A stretch of 64,000 nucleotides of DNA from an uncultured Anaerolineae bacterium (GTDB lineage: Bacteria; Chloroflexota; Anaerolineae; Anaerolineales; Villigracilaceae), in NCBI GenBank assembly GCA_903822545.1, contig CAIJPN010000068.1, forward strand, positions 1 to 64,000, given 5' to 3'. Position 1 is the first letter of the stretch. Every line of letters begins with the position of its first letter. The position numbers and the translations under genes were made by a program. The notes beneath the pieces are model-generated. The model saw nothing but the letters and a program-made list of their open reading frames with translations, did no database searches and had not been told where the DNA came from. Shown piece by piece: positions 38,731 to 46,504 of the stretch.

Positions 38731-39354
38731 TTATGGGTTGATTTCAAGGATGCGCGAGGGGTAGATATTGATTATTTCGGTGTCGTAATAAGTGGTGAAG
38801 TGTGGCTGGATGTTTTGCCGGTAGAAGATGGTGTGTCCATGCAGCATGTAGCGCGGGCGCGCCATACGGATGAGCCAGTTGAGGGCTTTGAGACCCTGGT
38901 GGGCGGGGTCGTCATCATCGTGGATGCCGTAGGCGGGGGAGTGGGTGATGAGCAGGTCGAGTTTGCGGCCATATTTGAGCTGGTTCCACCAGATGGTGGG
39001 CAGGAGTTGCATGGCGCGCCTGTACATTTGCTCCTGACTGTATTGGTTGGGTGAGTTGGGATGATAAACGATACTTCCACCCAGCCCGGCAAGCAGCAGC
39101 CCCTGGGAGTAGGCAACAGACATATCGAGATTAAATCCGCCTTCGGCGCGCGAGCGATTATCGAGATCGTGCCGGGGGTCATGGTTGCCCGGGACGTAGA
39201 ACATGGGGATGTTAAGCACTGTCACCAGGAACTCGAGGTAGGTATAGGGCAGATCACCGCAACCGATTATCATGCGCACATCTGGGTAGTTTTCGCGCAC
39301 GTTGGTTGAGTATAGCCGTTCGACAATCTGGTCACTGACAGCGAGGATTTTCAT
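38731..39354 (-). CDS. Cytosolic metallophosphoesterase
   Basis: A 207-residue compact calcineurin-like phosphoesterase. Its sites are AVSDQ (D plus a Gln where His is usual), GCGDLPYTYLEF, PGNHDPRHD, ITHSP and HGHT, so most of the dinuclear metal shell is conserved, with the first DxH motif reading DxI (SDQI). It has no signal peptide. The start at 39354 begins at MKILAVSDQ, as in other family members, and removes 26 upstream residues. It is the first gene of an operon with the DapA-like aldolase and the ligase. Confidence 0.78.
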   Translation of the reverse strand: MKILAVSDQIVERLYSTNVRENYPDVRMIIGCGDLPYTYLEFLVTVLNIPMFYVPGNHDPRHDLDNRSRAEGGFNLDMSVAYSQGLLLAGLGGSIVYHPNSPNQYSQEQMYRRAMQLLPTIWWNQLKYGRKLDLLITHSPAYGIHDDDDPAHQGLKALNWLIRMARPRYMLHGHTIFYRQNIQPHFTTYYDTEIINIYPSRILEINP

Positions 39355-39445
39355 GCTGGTTTTGAATTGTAAGGGATAGCGGGATTTGATGCAATGTGCC
39401 AATCGTGGTCGAACATTACCAATGATGGACAAATCTATGGGTTTA

Positions 39446-39475
39446 TTGTCATTCGGGATAAGGATAGGCTATAAT
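39446..39475 (+). promoter_or_regulatory. Sigma-70-type promoter for the kinase operon
   Basis: TTGTCA (39446-39451), an 18-base spacer and TATAAT (39470-39475). Transcription would start near 39482, giving a leader of about 45 bases before the kinase ATG at 39528. This is the best promoter match in the window. Confidence 0.7.
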
Positions 39476-39527: not shown

Positions 39528-41411
39528 ATGGAAACTCAAATTATTAATGACCCTGGAGACCTGCCAGGCCGACAAAGCTCAGGTCAATTACAACCAGGAA
39601 CTAATCTGGTAAATCGGTATTTAATCCAGGATGTGGTTGGGATTGGCGGTATGGGCTCGGTATATCGTGCTCGCGACCTGCACTTCCCCAATGTTATCAA
39701 ACTGGTGGCGGTTAAGGAGATGATAAATCAGGCTCCTGACCCGTTGGTGCGGCAAACCATCGTGTCGAATTTTGAGCGGGAGGCCAACATCCTGGCAACG
39801 CTCAGTCATCCGGCCATTCCACGCATTTATGATTATTTTTCGCTTGATAATCGCTCTTACCTGGTACTGGAATTTATCGGTGGGCACGATCTGGAAGTGA
39901 TCATCAGCCAGACGGAGGGTTTCCTGCCCGAAGAGCAGGTGCTGGCTTGGGCCATTGAGCTGTGCGATGTGATGTCGTTTTTGCACAATCACAAGCCTGA
40001 TCCAATCATCTTCCGTGACCTGAAACCATCCAATGTGATGATCAACCAGCACAATCACGTCATCTTGATCGACTTTGGCATCGCCAAAGTTTTCCAAAGC
40101 GGTCAGAAAGGGACGATGATCGGCACCGAAGGCTATTCGCCGCCGGAGCAATATCGTGGCGAGGCTTCTGTCCAGGCAGATATCTACGCCCTGGGGGCAT
40201 CGCTCCATCACATTGTGACCAAGCGCGATCCGCGCCTTGAACCGCCCTTCTCGTTCAATGAGCGCCCGGTTCGCAAGATCAACCCCAATGTTTCTGCCGA
40301 GCTTGAATCCGTCATCAACATTGCGCTGCAATACACGCCCTCAGACCGTTTCAAATCGGTGGAAGATTTCAAACAAGCGCTGATCGCGGCTGGGCGTAAA
40401 ACTGGCCTGCTGAATCGCATCAACGTTGGCCCATCGGTAATTGTGCAGGGAAACGATATAAAACCGCTGTGGGTCTTCAAGTGCGAAGATGAAATTCGTG
40501 GTACGCCAGCTTATCATAATGGCAGTTTGTTTGTTGGCTGTTACGATAACAACCTGTACGCGTTGGACGCTGCCGAAGGCAAATTCCAGTGGAAATATGC
40601 CACCGATGGCGGAGTTGTCAGCCGTCCGGCAGTTTTTGAAGAATCCCTGTTCTTTGGCTCCGAAGACAAACTGGTACACGCTGTTAATATGCGTTCTGGC
40701 AAAGTGGTATGGACTTATGCTACCGATGGGCGTGTGCGTTCCTCCCCGCGGATTGCTGATGGGCATGTCTTTGTCGGCTCTGATGACCGTATGCTCCATG
40801 CCATCAACCTTGCCACCGGGCGACGCGCCTGGACCGTTGACGCGGGCGGTGAAGTGCGTTCCACCCCCTTTGTCACCCCGGACCTCATTTATTTTGGCGC
40901 AGAAAGCGGAGATTTCATCTGCGCCAACTTCAATGGGAACATCAAATGGCGTTTCAAAGCCAAACGCTCACTGACATCTTCTCCGTGGGTTTACAAAGAT
41001 ACGGTTTTTGTCAGTTCAGTGGACAATCACCTGTACGCATTGGACGCCAAAAGCGGCTGGGCCGTTTGGCGCTTCCGCATGGATAAACCTTCCATATCAT
41101 CTCCCGCAGTGGCCGATGATATGGTGTTTGTTGGTTGTTCTGATGCCCACATCTATGCGGTAGATGCGCGCTCATCCAAAGAAATCTGGCGATTCAAAAC
41201 AGAACACCAGGTAAATGGTTCTCCCGTACTATATAAAGATGCCCTGTATTGTGGTTCCATTGATGGGAATCTGTACTGCATTGAATATAAAACAGGTCGT
41301 ATGCGCTGGAAATTCAACACCAAAGGCCCAATCACCGGAACGCCGGTTGTATACGACGATATTATCTACGTTGGTTCCAACGATCATTTAGTTTATGCGT
41401 TGCTCGCCTGA
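39528..41411 (+). CDS. Ser/Thr protein kinase fused to an eight-blade PQQ-type beta-propeller
   Basis: A 627-residue protein. Kinase domain about 30-285: glycine loop GIGGMGSVYRA, ATP-binding Lys63 in AVKEM, catalytic loop FRDLKPSN (Phe in place of the His of HRD), DFG in LIDFGIAK near 181, and PPEQYRG for APE. Residues 305-627 hold eight PQQ-like blades, each beginning with a GTPAYHNG- or SSPAVADD-type strand and ending near LYALDA. No membrane segment lies between the parts, so the propeller is probably cytosolic, unlike most receptor kinases. It is the first gene of a cassette with PP2C, J-vWA and FHA genes. The propeller may sense a ligand or dock substrates. Confidence 0.9.
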   Translation: METQIINDPGDLPGRQSSGQLQPGTNLVNRYLIQDVVGIGGMGSVYRARDLHFPNVIKLVAVKEMINQAPDPLVRQTIVSNFEREANILATLSHPAIPRIYDYFSLDNRSYLVLEFIGGHDLEVIISQTEGFLPEEQVLAWAIELCDVMSFLHNHKPDPIIFRDLKPSNVMINQHNHVILIDFGIAKVFQSGQKGTMIGTEGYSPPEQYRGEASVQADIYALGASLHHIVTKRDPRLEPPFSFNERPVRKINPNVSAELESVINIALQYTPSDRFKSVEDFKQALIAAGRKTGLLNRINVGPSVIVQGNDIKPLWVFKCEDEIRGTPAYHNGSLFVGCYDNNLYALDAAEGKFQWKYATDGGVVSRPAVFEESLFFGSEDKLVHAVNMRSGKVVWTYATDGRVRSSPRIADGHVFVGSDDRMLHAINLATGRRAWTVDAGGEVRSTPFVTPDLIYFGAESGDFICANFNGNIKWRFKAKRSLTSSPWVYKDTVFVSSVDNHLYALDAKSGWAVWRFRMDKPSISSPAVADDMVFVGCSDAHIYAVDARSSKEIWRFKTEHQVNGSPVLYKDALYCGSIDGNLYCIEYKTGRMRWKFNTKGPITGTPVVYDDIIYVGSNDHLVYALLA

Positions 41412-41429
41412 ACGCAAGGAGTAAAAGCC

Positions 41430-42341
41430 ATGATGGATTTCATCAAAAACCTCTTTGGCGGGAAGAAAGAACCCCCCAAGCGTTCTGCCATTGACAACGT
41501 TATCACTGCGCCCTTGTCCGAAGCCCAGCTTCAGTCGATTAAAGCCACTGCTAGCGCACGTTTTGAACCAGTGCAGTTGATCGTGGCGAGTGGACAATCG
41601 GTGGGCCGGCAGCGCGAACTAAACGAAGACAGCCTGTTCACCCTGGCATCCACCATTGCCGGGAATAGCGGCAACCCGCCTTTTGGGCTGTTCATCATCG
41701 CTGATGGCATGGGGGGGCATCAATATGGCGAAGTCGCCAGCAATACTGCCATCCGCAGCATTTCGGGCTATGTGCTGAACAAATTCCATGGTTCATTCTT
41801 TGCCATGCCCAGTGTGCCGTTGGAAGAATCACTGCAAGAGATTCTGATGGGTGCCATCATGGATGCCCAGCGCCGGGTTTTGCAAGAAGCCCCCGGCAGT
41901 GGAACCACCGCTACATCGGCGCTGGTTGTAGGCCAGCAGTTAACAATCGGCCACGTGGGCGACAGCCGGGCATACGCCATTTATCCCGATCACCGCATCG
42001 AACTGCTCACACGCGATCACTCGCTGGTGCGACGGCTGGAAGAACTCGGGCAGATCACTGCATCTGAAGCGGCGGTTCACCCCCAGCGTAATGTGCTCTA
42101 TCGCGCCCTTGGGCAGGGTGAAAGCCTCGAGCCAGATATTGTCACCATGCCTTTCCCGGTAGGAGGCTATTTAATGATCTGCTCTGATGGGTTATGGGGC
42201 GTACTTTCAGACGATGAAATCTCTAAAATCGTACTCGGTGCGCCAGATATTCAACGCGCTTGCCAGGAGTTGGTGGCAGCCGCCAACAATGCAGGTGGGC
42301 CAGATAATATCAGTGTCATTATTGCGCGTATGCTCAGCTAA
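41430..42341 (+). CDS. PP2C-family Ser/Thr protein phosphatase
   Basis: A 303-residue cytosolic PP2C. All metal-site motifs are present: RELNEDS, ADGMGGH, GDSRAYA, SDGLWGV and GGPDNISV. An N-terminal extension of about 50 residues (KNLFGGKKEPPKRSAIDN region) precedes the domain. AAGGAG stands 9 bases before the ATG, 19 bases after the kinase stop. It most likely reverses the phosphorylation made by the neighbouring kinase. It has no membrane segment. Confidence 0.92.
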   Translation: MMDFIKNLFGGKKEPPKRSAIDNVITAPLSEAQLQSIKATASARFEPVQLIVASGQSVGRQRELNEDSLFTLASTIAGNSGNPPFGLFIIADGMGGHQYGEVASNTAIRSISGYVLNKFHGSFFAMPSVPLEESLQEILMGAIMDAQRRVLQEAPGSGTTATSALVVGQQLTIGHVGDSRAYAIYPDHRIELLTRDHSLVRRLEELGQITASEAAVHPQRNVLYRALGQGESLEPDIVTMPFPVGGYLMICSDGLWGVLSDDEISKIVLGAPDIQRACQELVAAANNAGGPDNISVIIARMLS

Positions 42342-42349
42342 GGTTACGC

Positions 42350-43831
42350 ATGGCAAAACGGCCTAATTTGTATGTACTCCTGGGTATCCTCCGGTCAGCC
42401 AGTCAGGAGGAAATCCGGCATGCCTATTTGAAGGCCGTTAAAAAACTACATCCTGATAAAAACGGGCCGGGCGCAACCGAGATGTTCCTGGATGTGCAGG
42501 AAGCTTATGAAACCCTGGCAGATCCAGATCGCCGCGCTGCGTATGATGCTACCCTCCCGAAAGAAAAAGAAAACGAATCATCCATCCCATTTAATTGCGA
42601 GGTTGTTCTTAGCCGTTCTTACGTGCCTCGCATGAGGGATACTCAACTGGTTTATGCGCTGGTCAAACTGGCTCCATCGGTTGAGTTTGGACAGCAGGTG
42701 ATTGCGCCGACCCTGAATGTTTGCCTGGCCATTGATTGTTCCACGTCAATGAAAGGCGAGAAGCTGGATATTGTTAAGAGCACGGCTATCGCGCTGCTGC
42801 GCAAGCTGCGCCCGCAAGATTTTTTCTCGGTGGTCACATTCAGCGATCGGGCCGAAGTGTTGATCCCGGCCACGCGGCAGGTGGATATCCGGCGTTCTGA
42901 AATCAAGATACAGATGCTGAACACGTATGGGGGAACTGAGATTTTGCGAGGGCTGGAAGCAGCCTATCGCGAAGTCCAGCAATATGCCAGCTCAAAGTAT
43001 GTCAATCACATTATCTTGCTCACAGATGGGCAGACGTATGGTGATGAAGAAGCCTGCTATCATCTGGCAGATCTGGCTATCAAGAACAATATTGGCATTA
43101 CCGGTATGGGGCTTGGGGCAGAGTGGAATGATGTTTTTCTCGATCAACTTTCGGGGATCGCTGGCAGCAGCGCCATTTTTGTGGCCCAACCGCAGGATAT
43201 TTACAGGTTGCTGACCGAAAAGTTTAACAAACTTGGGAAGGTATGTGCTGAAACGGTAACCTTTGATTACCAGCTTCATGCCGATATTGAACTAAACTAT
43301 GCCTTTCGCCTGTCTCCGAATTCGAATGCGCTGCCGATTGAAACGCCGATCCAGTTTGGTTCAATTTTGCGAGATGAACCATTCAGCCTGTTGATGGAGT
43401 TACGGATTTTGCCCAAGGCCATTTTAAAGGCTCGTTCTGTGTCGGTACTGAGTGGGCATATCAAAATCTTGGCGGCCAATCTCTCATCCCCGGTGCCGCT
43501 GATCCCAATTAATATTGCCATGCCGGTTTCGACAGAGATTTCCCAAGATTCGCCGCCAGACGTGATTGTAAAAGCGCTTTCCAAACTGACCCTGTATCGG
43601 ATGCAGGAGCGCGCCCGCCTGGAAGTGAATGAAGGAAAGTTTGAAGAGGCTGCAGAGCATTTAAAAACGCTGGCAACCCGCCTTTTGGCCCAGGGGGAAC
43701 GCGCGCTGGCACAAACAGTGTTGCTTGAAGCTGAAAATATTACGCAGAAGAAGGCATTTTCTGAGAATGGCGAAAAACAGCTTAAATATGGCACCAGATC
43801 ACTCCTCATGCCAGGAAATATGCCAAAATGA
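42350..43831 (+). CDS. J-domain/von Willebrand factor A fusion protein
   Basis: A 493-residue protein. Residues 1-70 are a DnaJ-type J domain: NLYVLLGILRSASQEEIRHA and the HPD motif in KLHPDKN, followed by FLDVQEAYETLADPDRR. After a linker, a vWA domain of about 120-300 has an intact MIDAS: DCSTS near 128, the Thr in GGTEIL near 195 and TDGQTYGD near 225. The C-terminal 180 residues are beta-rich then helical, without a known name. The J domain implies contact with an Hsp70 partner; vWA domains act in metal-dependent protein assembly. It sits between the phosphatase and FHA genes and overlaps the FHA gene start by ATGA. Confidence 0.87.
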   Translation: MAKRPNLYVLLGILRSASQEEIRHAYLKAVKKLHPDKNGPGATEMFLDVQEAYETLADPDRRAAYDATLPKEKENESSIPFNCEVVLSRSYVPRMRDTQLVYALVKLAPSVEFGQQVIAPTLNVCLAIDCSTSMKGEKLDIVKSTAIALLRKLRPQDFFSVVTFSDRAEVLIPATRQVDIRRSEIKIQMLNTYGGTEILRGLEAAYREVQQYASSKYVNHIILLTDGQTYGDEEACYHLADLAIKNNIGITGMGLGAEWNDVFLDQLSGIAGSSAIFVAQPQDIYRLLTEKFNKLGKVCAETVTFDYQLHADIELNYAFRLSPNSNALPIETPIQFGSILRDEPFSLLMELRILPKAILKARSVSVLSGHIKILAANLSSPVPLIPINIAMPVSTEISQDSPPDVIVKALSKLTLYRMQERARLEVNEGKFEEAAEHLKTLATRLLAQGERALAQTVLLEAENITQKKAFSENGEKQLKYGTRSLLMPGNMPK

Positions 43832-44325
43832 ATGTATGTCCCAATTGCAATCATAAAGAATTAACTGGCACCATCTTTTGCAGTGAATGTGGTGCACAGT
43901 TGATCGCTGGTTCTCGGAATGAGACATCTCCGGCGGGTGTGCCGATTGATGAAAAGCCAACTACTCCAATGTCTGCGACCCCGTTTGGGGGCAATTCCTG
44001 GATTTCCCTCCAGCTTGTGGAGACCGGTGAATTGTTGCCCCTGAATGAAGCAAATGAGTTCACGATGGGACGCGCCAGTGAAAACCAGCCGATCATGCCT
44101 GATGTTGATTTGACGTCTTGCAAGGCTTATGAAAATGGAGTTTCACGGCTGCATGCCGTGATCAGGCGTTCCAAGGATAACCGTGTCAGCATCATGGATT
44201 TGGGATCTTCCAACGGTACGTATGTTAACGGAATTCGTATCAGCCCAAATATTCACCAGGTTATTCGAAATGGTGATGTTGTTTCAGTAGGTAAATTGAA
44301 ATTCCAGGTGATCTTAATCAAATAA
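43828..44325 (+). CDS. Zinc-ribbon/FHA domain protein
   Basis: A 165-residue protein. The N-terminal zinc ribbon has two CxxC knuckles (CPNC and CSEC). Residues 60-160 form a forkhead-associated domain with FTMGRASE, GVSRLHAVIRR and DLGSSNGTYVNG, including the Arg and Ser that bind phosphothreonine. It should read phosphorylation made by the kinase of the same operon. Its start overlaps the stop of the J-vWA gene, which implies translational coupling and a matched amount. Confidence 0.9.
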   Translation: MNVCPNCNHKELTGTIFCSECGAQLIAGSRNETSPAGVPIDEKPTTPMSATPFGGNSWISLQLVETGELLPLNEANEFTMGRASENQPIMPDVDLTSCKAYENGVSRLHAVIRRSKDNRVSIMDLGSSNGTYVNGIRISPNIHQVIRNGDVVSVGKLKFQVILIK

Positions 44326-44335
44326 CAGGTGTCGA

Positions 44336-44581
44336 ATGCAAACAATTCTCATCCATATCGCAAATGAAGAACCAATCCTGGCTGAAGTTGACGAACTGCC
44401 GGGCCTCACAGATATCATGATCAAAGCCAAAAATCCGCGCAAACGTGATGGCAAAGATTTGACTTATTTGGCGCATAATGTTACCCAGGTAATTTGGCCA
44501 ATGGCGCGCATTGGTTTTATCGAAATCATGCCCAGCGATGACGATGAAGAGATTATCGGCTTTGTTCGGGAGCAACAGTAA
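44336..44581 (+). CDS. Small conserved-looking protein of unknown function
   Basis: An 81-residue soluble acidic protein. It has no signal peptide or membrane segment and no motif I recognise. It is tightly packed between the FHA gene (10 bases) and the response regulator, whose ATG follows its stop directly. This packing and its normal codon use support a real gene that may be a partner of the signalling cassette. A block with LPGLTDIMIKAKNPRKRDGK stands out as possibly functional. Confidence 0.7.
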   Translation: MQTILIHIANEEPILAEVDELPGLTDIMIKAKNPRKRDGKDLTYLAHNVTQVIWPMARIGFIEIMPSDDDEEIIGFVREQQ

Positions 44582-45307
44582 ATGCCTGAAGAATATGACA
44601 GACGACGTATCCTGGTGGTGGATGATGAAGAGCGCATGGTGCGCTTCATCCGCCTGAACCTGGAACACGATGGGTTCCAGGTGAGTGAGGCTTTTAACGG
44701 GCGGCAAGCGGTGCAAAAGTTCCGCGATGTCAACCCGGATTTGATCTTGCTGGATGTGATGATGCCTGACCTGGATGGTTTCGATGTGCTGGAGATGATC
44801 CGTGAGATCAGCCAGGTGCCGGTGATCATGCTGACAGCCAAAGGCGAGGAAGATGACCGGGTGCGCGGCCTCGAATTAGGCGCCGATGATTATGTTACCA
44901 AGCCGTTTAGCCCGCGAGAACTGGTGAGCCGTGTGAGGGCAGTGCTGCGCCGCACGGAGAGCGCCAGCGGCTCGATGCACGGGCTGATGGAGATTGACGA
45001 ACGCCTGAAAATCGATTTTGACCGGCGCGAGGTCTGGTTGGAAGGCAAAATCGTCAAGCTGCGGCCCACTGAGTATCGGCTGTTGTTCCACCTGGTGCAA
45101 AATGCCGGGTGGGTGGTTTCTCATGACCAGCTTTTGGCGAAAGTTTGGGGTTATGAGTACCGCGATGAGCCGCATTATGTGCGCCTGTATATCAATTACC
45201 TGCGCCAGAAGCTGGAAAAGGATCCGGCTGACCCGAAATATATCTTGACGGAGCGCGGTGTGGGTTATCGCTTTGTCGATTATCGCAGGCCAGGAAAAGC
45301 TGATTAA
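44582..45307 (+). CDS. OmpR/PhoB-family response regulator
   Basis: A 241-residue regulator. The receiver has DDE at 14-16, phospho-acceptor Asp58 in LLDVMMPD, the switch Thr in MLTAKGEED, and Lys in VTKPFSP. The C-terminal winged helix has [31 protein letters not shown] and the wing [11 protein letters not shown]. No histidine kinase gene is adjacent, so it is an orphan in this window. It may be controlled by the Ser/Thr cassette upstream or by a distant kinase. It directly follows the small protein gene and is followed by a terminator. Confidence 0.93.
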
Positions 45308-45414: not shown

Positions 45415-45458
45415 GATACAGGATTTGTGTTTTTCTGACACGAATCCTGTATCTTTTT
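45415..45458 (+). terminator. Intrinsic terminator after the OmpR-type regulator
   Basis: GATACAGGATTTGTG (45415-45429) pairs with CACGAATCCTGTATC (45439-45453) with one G-T wobble and a 9-base loop, followed by TTTTT. It ends the long operon that starts at 39528. Confidence 0.85.
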
Positions 45459-45701: not shown

Positions 45702-45786
45702 GTTGGCGCAGCTTTGTCAATCAGACACCAGCTCCTTAACGGCTGGTGTTTTGGTTTATTGCTGAAGCGGACATTTTGGACAACCC

Positions 45787-45815
45787 TTGTCATACATTCT
45801 CCTCTCGGCTATACT
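45787..45815 (+). promoter_or_regulatory. Sigma-70-type promoter for the NarL-type regulator
   Basis: TTGTCA (45787-45792), a 17-base spacer and TATACT (45810-45815), with the predicted start near 45822 and the ATG at 45845. Confidence 0.65.
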
Positions 45816-45844
45816 CTTTATCCCATTGGAGACGCGAGGATTGC

Positions 45845-46504
45845 ATGGCAAAACAAAGAATTTTGCTCGTCGATGATCATGAAGTTGTTCGTTTAGGCCT
45901 GAAGGCCCTGCTAGAACGACACCCTAGCTTTGAGGTGATTGGCGAGGCTGGTTCGGCCCGCGATGCGATTGAACAGGTTGCCACACTCTCACCTTCGGTG
46001 GTGGTGATGGATATCCGCTTGCCGGGGTCATCTGGTATTGAGGCGTGCGAGGAAATTGTGCATCGTTTCCCCGATACGAAAGTGATTATGTTGACTTCGT
46101 ACGCTGAGGATGAGATGCTGTTCTCGGCCATCCGTGCCGGGGCTTCGGGCTACATCTTGAAGCAGATTGCCAGCGATGATTTGGTGCGCGCGCTGGAAGC
46201 GGTTGGGCGCGGCGAAGCGCTGCTCGACCCGGCGGTAACACAGCGTGTCTTCCAGGAAGTGCGCAAGGCGGTGAAAGAGGAGGAAGCTTCGGCGTTCTCG
46301 CACCTTAGTCAGCAGGAAAAGCATGTCCTTTTGCTGGTTTCAGAAGGCAAAACCAACCGCGAAATTGCCAAAGCATTATTCCTGGGCGAAGGCACCGTGC
46401 GAAACTATGTTAGCAGCATTCTTTCCAAGCTGGGTGTCAATAACCGGGCGGAGGCCGCCGCGTATGCGGTGGAGCACAACCTGAAAGATTACATTCAACC
46501 TTAA
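45845..46504 (+). CDS. NarL/FixJ-family response regulator
   Basis: A 219-residue regulator. The receiver has DD at 10-11, phospho-acceptor Asp56 in [10 protein letters not shown] and Lys in ILKQIAS. The LuxR-type helix-turn-helix near 155-205 reads [22 protein letters not shown] and [22 protein letters not shown] (shown in two parts, both of the family form). The ATG at 45845 was chosen since GAGGA lies before it and the receiver begins there; the frame is open 33 codons upstream through the promoter. No kinase gene is adjacent. A terminator follows at 46511. Confidence 0.92.

Follow-up and report, generated by a model that had tools for sequence, protein, structure and literature searches.

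A 64,000-nt stretch of contig CAIJPN010000068.1 from an uncultured Anaerolineae bacterium (the whole of this stretch is called the window) carries six adjacent genes, here named K, P, V, F, O and R. With a rough probability of two in three they encode a phosphothreonine switch of the archaeal ArnA-ArnB type in a bacterial version, whose writer and eraser belong to the same operon. An earlier note, made from the letters of the window, had described the first five of them as a cytosolic module of writer (kinase K), eraser (phosphatase P), reader (F) and scaffold (V), and our analysis supports such a module with a conserved gene order. Gene order, predicted folds, invariance of a short motif in V and co-occurrence of the genes are established in what follows. 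The features are:

39446..39475, forward strand: sigma-70-like promoter TTGTCA-18-TATAAT, a consensus match only, 52 bp before the first ATG
39528..41411, forward strand: K, Ser/Thr kinase with an eight-bladed PQQ-type propeller; kinase domain at about 39624-40355
41430..42341, forward strand: P, PP2C phosphatase, catalytic motifs present
42350..43831, forward strand: V, J domain and ArnB-fold vWA protein with predicted split beta-sandwich, metal-ion-dependent adhesion site (MIDAS) vWA domain and four-helix bundle
42449..42457, forward strand: HPD tripeptide of the J domain of V (residues 34-36 of the translation)
43793..43804, forward strand: T482-R-S-L485 of V, closing the last helix of the bundle; invariant T-R-x-L, predicted phospho-switch
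43828..44325, forward strand: F, zinc ribbon (43837-43890) and FHA domain (44062-44292), an ArnA-like layout
44336..44581, forward strand: O, protein of 81 amino acids with a predicted Sm/LSm-like fold; family absent from Pfam
44582..45307, forward strand: R, OmpR-family response regulator, D58 phospho-acceptor conserved
45415..45453, forward strand: intrinsic-terminator-like hairpin (17-pair stem, T-tail), putative operon end

Passages in PMC6509490, PMC12852372 and PMC10470591 place the phosphothreonines of ArnB in its C-terminal four-helix bundle, where ArnC writes and PP2A removes them, and describe that the FHA domain of ArnA binds phospho-ArnB while its zinc finger binds unphosphorylated ArnB. 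The AlphaFold2 model of V, calculated with 53 homologues, reached a mean predicted local distance difference test score (pLDDT) of 93.6 and consists of the J domain (residues 7-68), a split beta-sandwich (81-109 and 298-394), the vWA domain (121-296) and a helix bundle (404-484). When residues 79-489 were compared with solved structures we obtained Z scores of 35.8 for 4fx5, 30.7 for the ArnAB complex 8s05 and 26.1 for 5a8j (vWA2, a paralogue of ArnB), and the superposition with ArnB (8s05_B) runs along the length of ArnB (371 residues aligned, root-mean-square deviation 4.0). Weaker fold matches mostly covered the vWA domain only, with inter-alpha-inhibitor as an exception, and the sequence profile of V finds 8s05 at an expectation value (E) of 2e-21. 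Judged by the model, V is an ArnB-fold protein, as both the split beta-sandwich and the C-terminal four-helix bundle are present. The adjacent F has the layout of ArnA and matches it in sequence (5a8i at E 0.0019 with phmmer, 8s05_C at E about 0.002). Its zinc ribbon scores below the Pfam cut-off; C4, C7, C18 and C21 are present and the pattern occurs in 84 of 97 F proteins. The operon hence shares with ArnA-ArnB of the Sulfolobales (8s05, 5a8i, 5a8j) the zinc ribbon-FHA reader, the neighbouring vWA partner with split beta-sandwich and four-helix bundle, and threonines in this bundle with a kinase and a phosphatase acting there, which is here predicted from the genes. It differs from the archaeal pair in being bacterial, in holding kinase and phosphatase in a single operon, in using a PP2C instead of PP2A, in a single invariant T-R-x-L that replaces several threonines, and in the additional LSm-fold protein, kinase propeller, J domain and response regulator.

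FHA domains have preferences at position pT+3, and T-x-x-[I/L] is an FHA ligand pattern. V was detected in 88 of 121 loci, and these provided 86 complete rows and two incomplete ones for the analysis of the motif at its C-terminus. Twenty columns are invariant in the 86 complete proteins, 16 of them in the vWA domain and the others being P323, T482, R483 and L485; the last three are kept in the two incomplete rows as well. T-x-x-[L/I] was found within the last 40 residues of all 88 V proteins, compared to a mean of 31.6 and a maximum of 47 in shuffles. In a held-out set of 65 V proteins (mostly Anaerolineales), from which sequences identical to the first set over the last 200 residues had been excluded, 61 show TRxL, two TRxI and one TKxL, and one with an odd C-terminus (L275) shows none of these. 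V also occurs outside the O cassette: of the 22 genomes in the class that have V and lack O we analyzed 17, and three second copies of V were added; in these 20 loci 19 of 21 tails fit T[RK]x[LI], two are TVKL, and an FHA-matching open frame is present every time. These O-less clusters (L296-L315) combine vWA, FHA and PP2C genes with one or more kinases, and the tail reads TRKLT in most of them. A tblastn search with V yielded 61 plasmid records, of which 11 hand-chosen ones were examined. The FHA-linked homologues on cyanobacterial and Deinococcus plasmids have T-x-x-[L/I/M] tails in five of five cases, TVKM or TLKI being shared. Among homologues without an FHA neighbour, as judged by annotation from PLSDB gene tables that are incomplete, none of five has T-x-x-[L/I/M] in the last 70 residues. 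One further homologue, on a plasmid of Nostoc sp. ATCC 53789, ends in TIKM; its record stops before the next gene, which leaves its FHA linkage undecided. Phosphorylation of T482 and its recognition by an FHA domain are what these sequence patterns predict.

We infer T482 phosphorylation, FHA binding and the roles of O, of the J domain and of R as follows. T482, part of the T-R-x-L with which the C-terminal helix bundle of V ends, would be phosphorylated by K. F would then bind pThr482 through its FHA domain and contact V with its zinc ribbon, giving an altered V-F complex, and P would reverse the phosphorylation of V. The propeller would steer K, and the LSm-fold protein O would probably steer or tune it as well. 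In Anaerolineae, the J domain of V could in addition recruit Hsp70 to remodel the V-F complex, and the OmpR-type R would be the likely transcriptional output. GarA and OdhI are known for the intramolecular binding of a Thr motif by their FHA domain, and many relatives of F share with them an FHA domain preceded by an N-terminal Thr motif. In 58 of the 84 F proteins with a zinc-ribbon pattern a T-x-x-[L/I] begins at a distance of 6-14 residues from the ribbon (shuffles 10.1, maximum 21) and could fold back on the FHA domain. F of the window has no T-x-x-[L/I] there, and F differs from GarA and OdhI also by its zinc ribbon and its vWA partner.

Several points weigh against an ArnAB-type switch. 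ArnB uses several threonines and not one, and its phosphatase is a PP2A whereas that of the operon is a PP2C. The best fold match of V is the bacterial chain 4fx5, which is not known here to work with an FHA protein; in sequence ArnB is not nearer to V than 4fx5 and inter-alpha-inhibitor are, and Pfam ArnB_C (PF18677) is matched by 2 of 53 V proteins at E<1 (best E 0.014). GarA is the best sequence match of F among solved structures, and the reader of V need not be F because the genome has 15 FHA-domain matches. The FHA-linked plasmid tails are rich in threonine, and two of the five FHA-less controls are fusions, whose last 70 residues are perhaps not homologous. Finally, T-R-x-L may be structural because T482 is part of the final helix of the model (472-484). 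T-R-x-L would then be a cap or dimer contact of the bundle and the FHA protein would read another phospho-protein, a possibility that we take seriously and nevertheless consider doubtful. It fits with the motif ending a confidently predicted helix, with Arg and Leu being as invariant as Thr, and with the number of FHA-domain matches in the genome. However, the cyanobacterial FHA-linked tails repeat TVK[MI], as a docking peptide would, the tail motif is lacking from the five homologues without annotated FHA neighbour (two fusions included), and V never occurs without F in the 88 loci.

The order of the genes was analyzed in 120 O loci, hand-picked across families (40 from the order, family included, 40 from the class and 40 from the wider phylum). 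As these loci were found through O, its presence in all 120 is by construction, and hence we made additional checks anchored on K and V; the pattern counts include loci truncated by a contig end, which makes the absences upper bounds. We observed that K>P>V>F>O>(R) is never permuted, except in L129, where overlapping long frames hide the starts, and that F follows V in all 88 loci with V. An additional kinase-FHA frame sits between F and O in L107 and L117. A second set of 80 independently fetched loci, obtained from 204 relatives by an exact-peptide-pattern scan of contigs that tells little about distant phyla, shows the exact order K, P, J-vWA, F, O, R in 63 loci. Conservation of the order, which the earlier note had proposed to look for, is thereby confirmed, and within the searches made the homologues are not scattered singly. 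At the level of the order K, P, V, F and R were each found in 39 of 40 loci and the J domain in 36; the numbers for the class are K 34, P 31, V 35, F 36, R 23 and J 29, and for the wider phylum K 17, P 13, V 13, F 21, R 0 and J 1. Reduced forms comprise K-O only (6 loci), K-P-O (3, one of them with R) and F-O (8), and O has no detected partner in 14 loci, two of which contain a cut or broken kinase. From these block counts and reduced forms R and J seem to be later additions. The named strains with all six genes are Bellilinea caldifistulae, Thermanaerothrix daxensis, Ornatilinea apprima, Leptolinea tardivitalis, Anaerolinea thermolimosa and Leptolinea sp. HRD-7.

Co-occurrence was evaluated in 101 relatives, the genome of the window included, 75 of which are of good quality. 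K is found at E 1e-100 or better in 93 of them; V has a match in 96 (generic J- or vWA-only matches included) and one at E 1e-60 or better in 87; O is present in 90 and in 70 of the 75 good-quality genomes. O is present wherever V is strong (87 of 87 genomes) and in 89 of the 93 genomes that have K, so the 81-residue protein does usually accompany the cassette, a co-occurrence that the earlier note had proposed to look for. K without O was seen in four genomes: G042, where K lies at a contig end, G067, G082, whose K is only 33% identical, and G094. By profile search, O was detected in 105 of 249 genomes of the class and in 130 of 400 of the phylum; a strong V is present in 117 of the 249, and 95 of those 117 also have O. 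A hit in another phylum, on the contig L206 of a 'Bacteroidetes' metagenome-assembled genome, was rejected: the contig is Anaerolineales-like, and contamination is likely because this same genome is the only one with O among 118 of its phylum.

The HPD-positive J domain that the earlier note had seen on the vWA protein is indeed there. V might be regarded as an Hsp70-recruiting co-chaperone in which phosphorylation gates the delivery of the chaperone, the reading closest to the emphasis of that note, and HPD is kept in 35 of 40 order-level loci and in all 61 J-positive held-out V proteins. We nonetheless consider this improbable, as 12 of 13 V proteins of the wider phylum have no J domain and HPD is degenerate in 9 of 67 J-positive V proteins, T-R-x-L being retained. 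Hsp70 recruitment, which had been suggested for the module, is accordingly not its core (J in 36/40 loci of the order, 29/40 of the class and 1/40 of the wider phylum), and the J domain was rejected as a defining part; it is a lineage add-on.

Domain searches agree with the earlier assignments of kinase plus PQQ, PP2C, DnaJ plus vWA, and zinc ribbon plus FHA. The kinase domain of K is matched at E 2.7e-38, and at least 93% of the 91 K proteins retain its catalytic residues, including FRD (162-164) and DFG. Eight PQQ blades can be followed by tryptophans at 315, 355, 395, 435, 474, 514, 554 and 594, and K of the window is predicted to have no membrane segment, in line with the earlier note, because its peak 19-residue hydropathy is only 1.03. 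RqkA and AfsK are PQQ-propeller kinases like K; K of the window differs from them in having no predicted membrane segment, and with the AfsK equivalog of NCBIfam it scores 213.8 bits, below the curated cut-off of 1300. Conservation of the receiver residues of R reaches at least 93% among 63 R proteins.

Judging by the layout, K, P, V, F, O and R form one putative six-gene operon that ends at the terminator. The five genes first described lie at the coordinates given in the earlier note and are tightly packed, with gaps of 18, 8, -4 (ATGA) and 10 nt. Of two ATGA or direct overlaps that had been claimed, one is an ATGA overlap, whereas the other junction (O/R, TAAATG) is a direct abutment with no gap. 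The promoter, called strong before, agrees with the consensus at 11 of 12 bases and is the best of 12 promoter-like sites in the region, where 7.6 would be expected. The unit extends beyond 44581: R starts at 44582, a strong terminator follows at 45415-45453, and the five-gene set was incomplete without this response regulator. Beyond the terminator lies a LuxR-type response regulator (45746-46504), and several relatives too have a receiver-domain gene after R. On the other side, a divergent metallophosphoesterase gene (38731-39432) shares its upstream region with the operon.

The TerY-P triad consists of kinase, PP2C and vWA, and ter systems are linked to TerD-family genes. The earlier note had named this triad as the known relative, but the closest relative by predicted fold is ArnA-ArnB and not TerY-P; the operon has kinase, PP2C and vWA in common with TerY-P and differs from it by its ArnB-type vWA, its FHA reader and a genome with 0 matches to TerD. 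An AAA+ protein of the MoxR type, as in MoxR-vWA/VMAP ternary systems, is not among the six operon proteins, relatives not having been searched for MoxR. Among the PADLOC models, the kinase ones PD-T4-6 and mad6 are matched by the kinase domain of K, and PDC-M21C is matched by P (E 4e-14); we read these as generic domain matches. A defence or conflict system, TerY-P or VMAP-like, is very unlikely: these PADLOC matches and the co-occurrence of kinase, PP2C and vWA in such systems (PMC7159879) stand against the presence of O in 90 of 101 relatives and 70 of 75 good-quality ones, unlike patchy defence loci, and against the lack of TerD and MoxR just described.

O, called an orphan before, belongs to a phylum-wide family with an LSm-like predicted fold. 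Searches of Pfam, NCBIfam and PADLOC gave no match to it at the limits applied, and none of 92 family members has a credible Pfam match. The AlphaFold2 model of O (mean pLDDT 89.5, five strands) matches Lsm/Sm chains with Z 6.7-8.0 and a best Foldseek E of 0.02, at the level of the fold only, as a Z under 8 may reflect a common arrangement. Among the 50 structural matches listed, the top three are the designed nanoparticle TIP60 and the remainder are nearly all Sm, LSm or Gemin. We predict O to represent a new Sm/LSm-fold family, the five-strand bent-sheet barrel being found at the fold level. O as a substrate of the kinase is not favoured, since its nearly invariant residues include no Ser or Thr, and a fusion of O with the regulator, suspected from open-frame lengths of 322-366, was rejected with 0 frames holding both domains in 121 loci. 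In one distant Chloroflexota family O occurs without kinase, downstream of comM-dprA and upstream of topA (all three genes in 10 of 12 loci); these homologues (L192-L203) carry a C-terminal extension and are mostly located between comM-dprA and topA. Other kinase-less O genes follow NAD kinase, recN and an FHA gene in 5 of 8 loci (L173, L174, L179, L181, L185). These neighbourhoods hint at genome maintenance.

The cyanobacterial and Deinococcus plasmid clusters share with the operon a homologous vWA protein with the T-x-x-[L/I/M] tail, FHA and PP2C close by and a kinase in 4 of 5 cases; gene order and kinase lengths differ, with an N-terminal zinc-ribbon-like start in Tolypothrix, and O was not detected in the 11 plasmid loci. 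On plasmid pDrdA of Deinococcus wulumuqiensis (L291, 4137-11876) pprA, lexA, vWA, protein kinase, FHA and PP2C lie on one strand, which is a related cassette beside DNA-repair genes. The individual parts and the ArnAB principle are already known, and ArnB-like architectures are, according to a section of PMC12852372 (2026), widespread and mostly outside multi-phosphorylation processes. An identical five-gene set was not found in the open-access literature, subscription papers being outside the scope, and neither was a dedicated operon of the ArnAB type in bacteria that combines a single invariant threonine with an LSm-fold partner.

In a more speculative and rather doubtful reading, the LSm-fold protein O may sense nucleic acid or another ligand and control the propeller kinase, giving an ArnAB-type switch for genome-maintenance or stress signalling across Chloroflexota. 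This reading is supported by the location of cassette-less O near comM-dprA and topA or recN, by the Deinococcus version beside pprA-lexA, and by ArnA being described in PMC10470591 as a repressor of the DNA-damage response in Saccharolobus. The operon names a widespread family of small proteins that has no entry in the libraries searched, and it offers a bacterial ArnB-fold protein with one invariant threonine beside its own FHA reader, kinase and phosphatase; within one order of Chloroflexota this signalling pathway seems to be almost universal.

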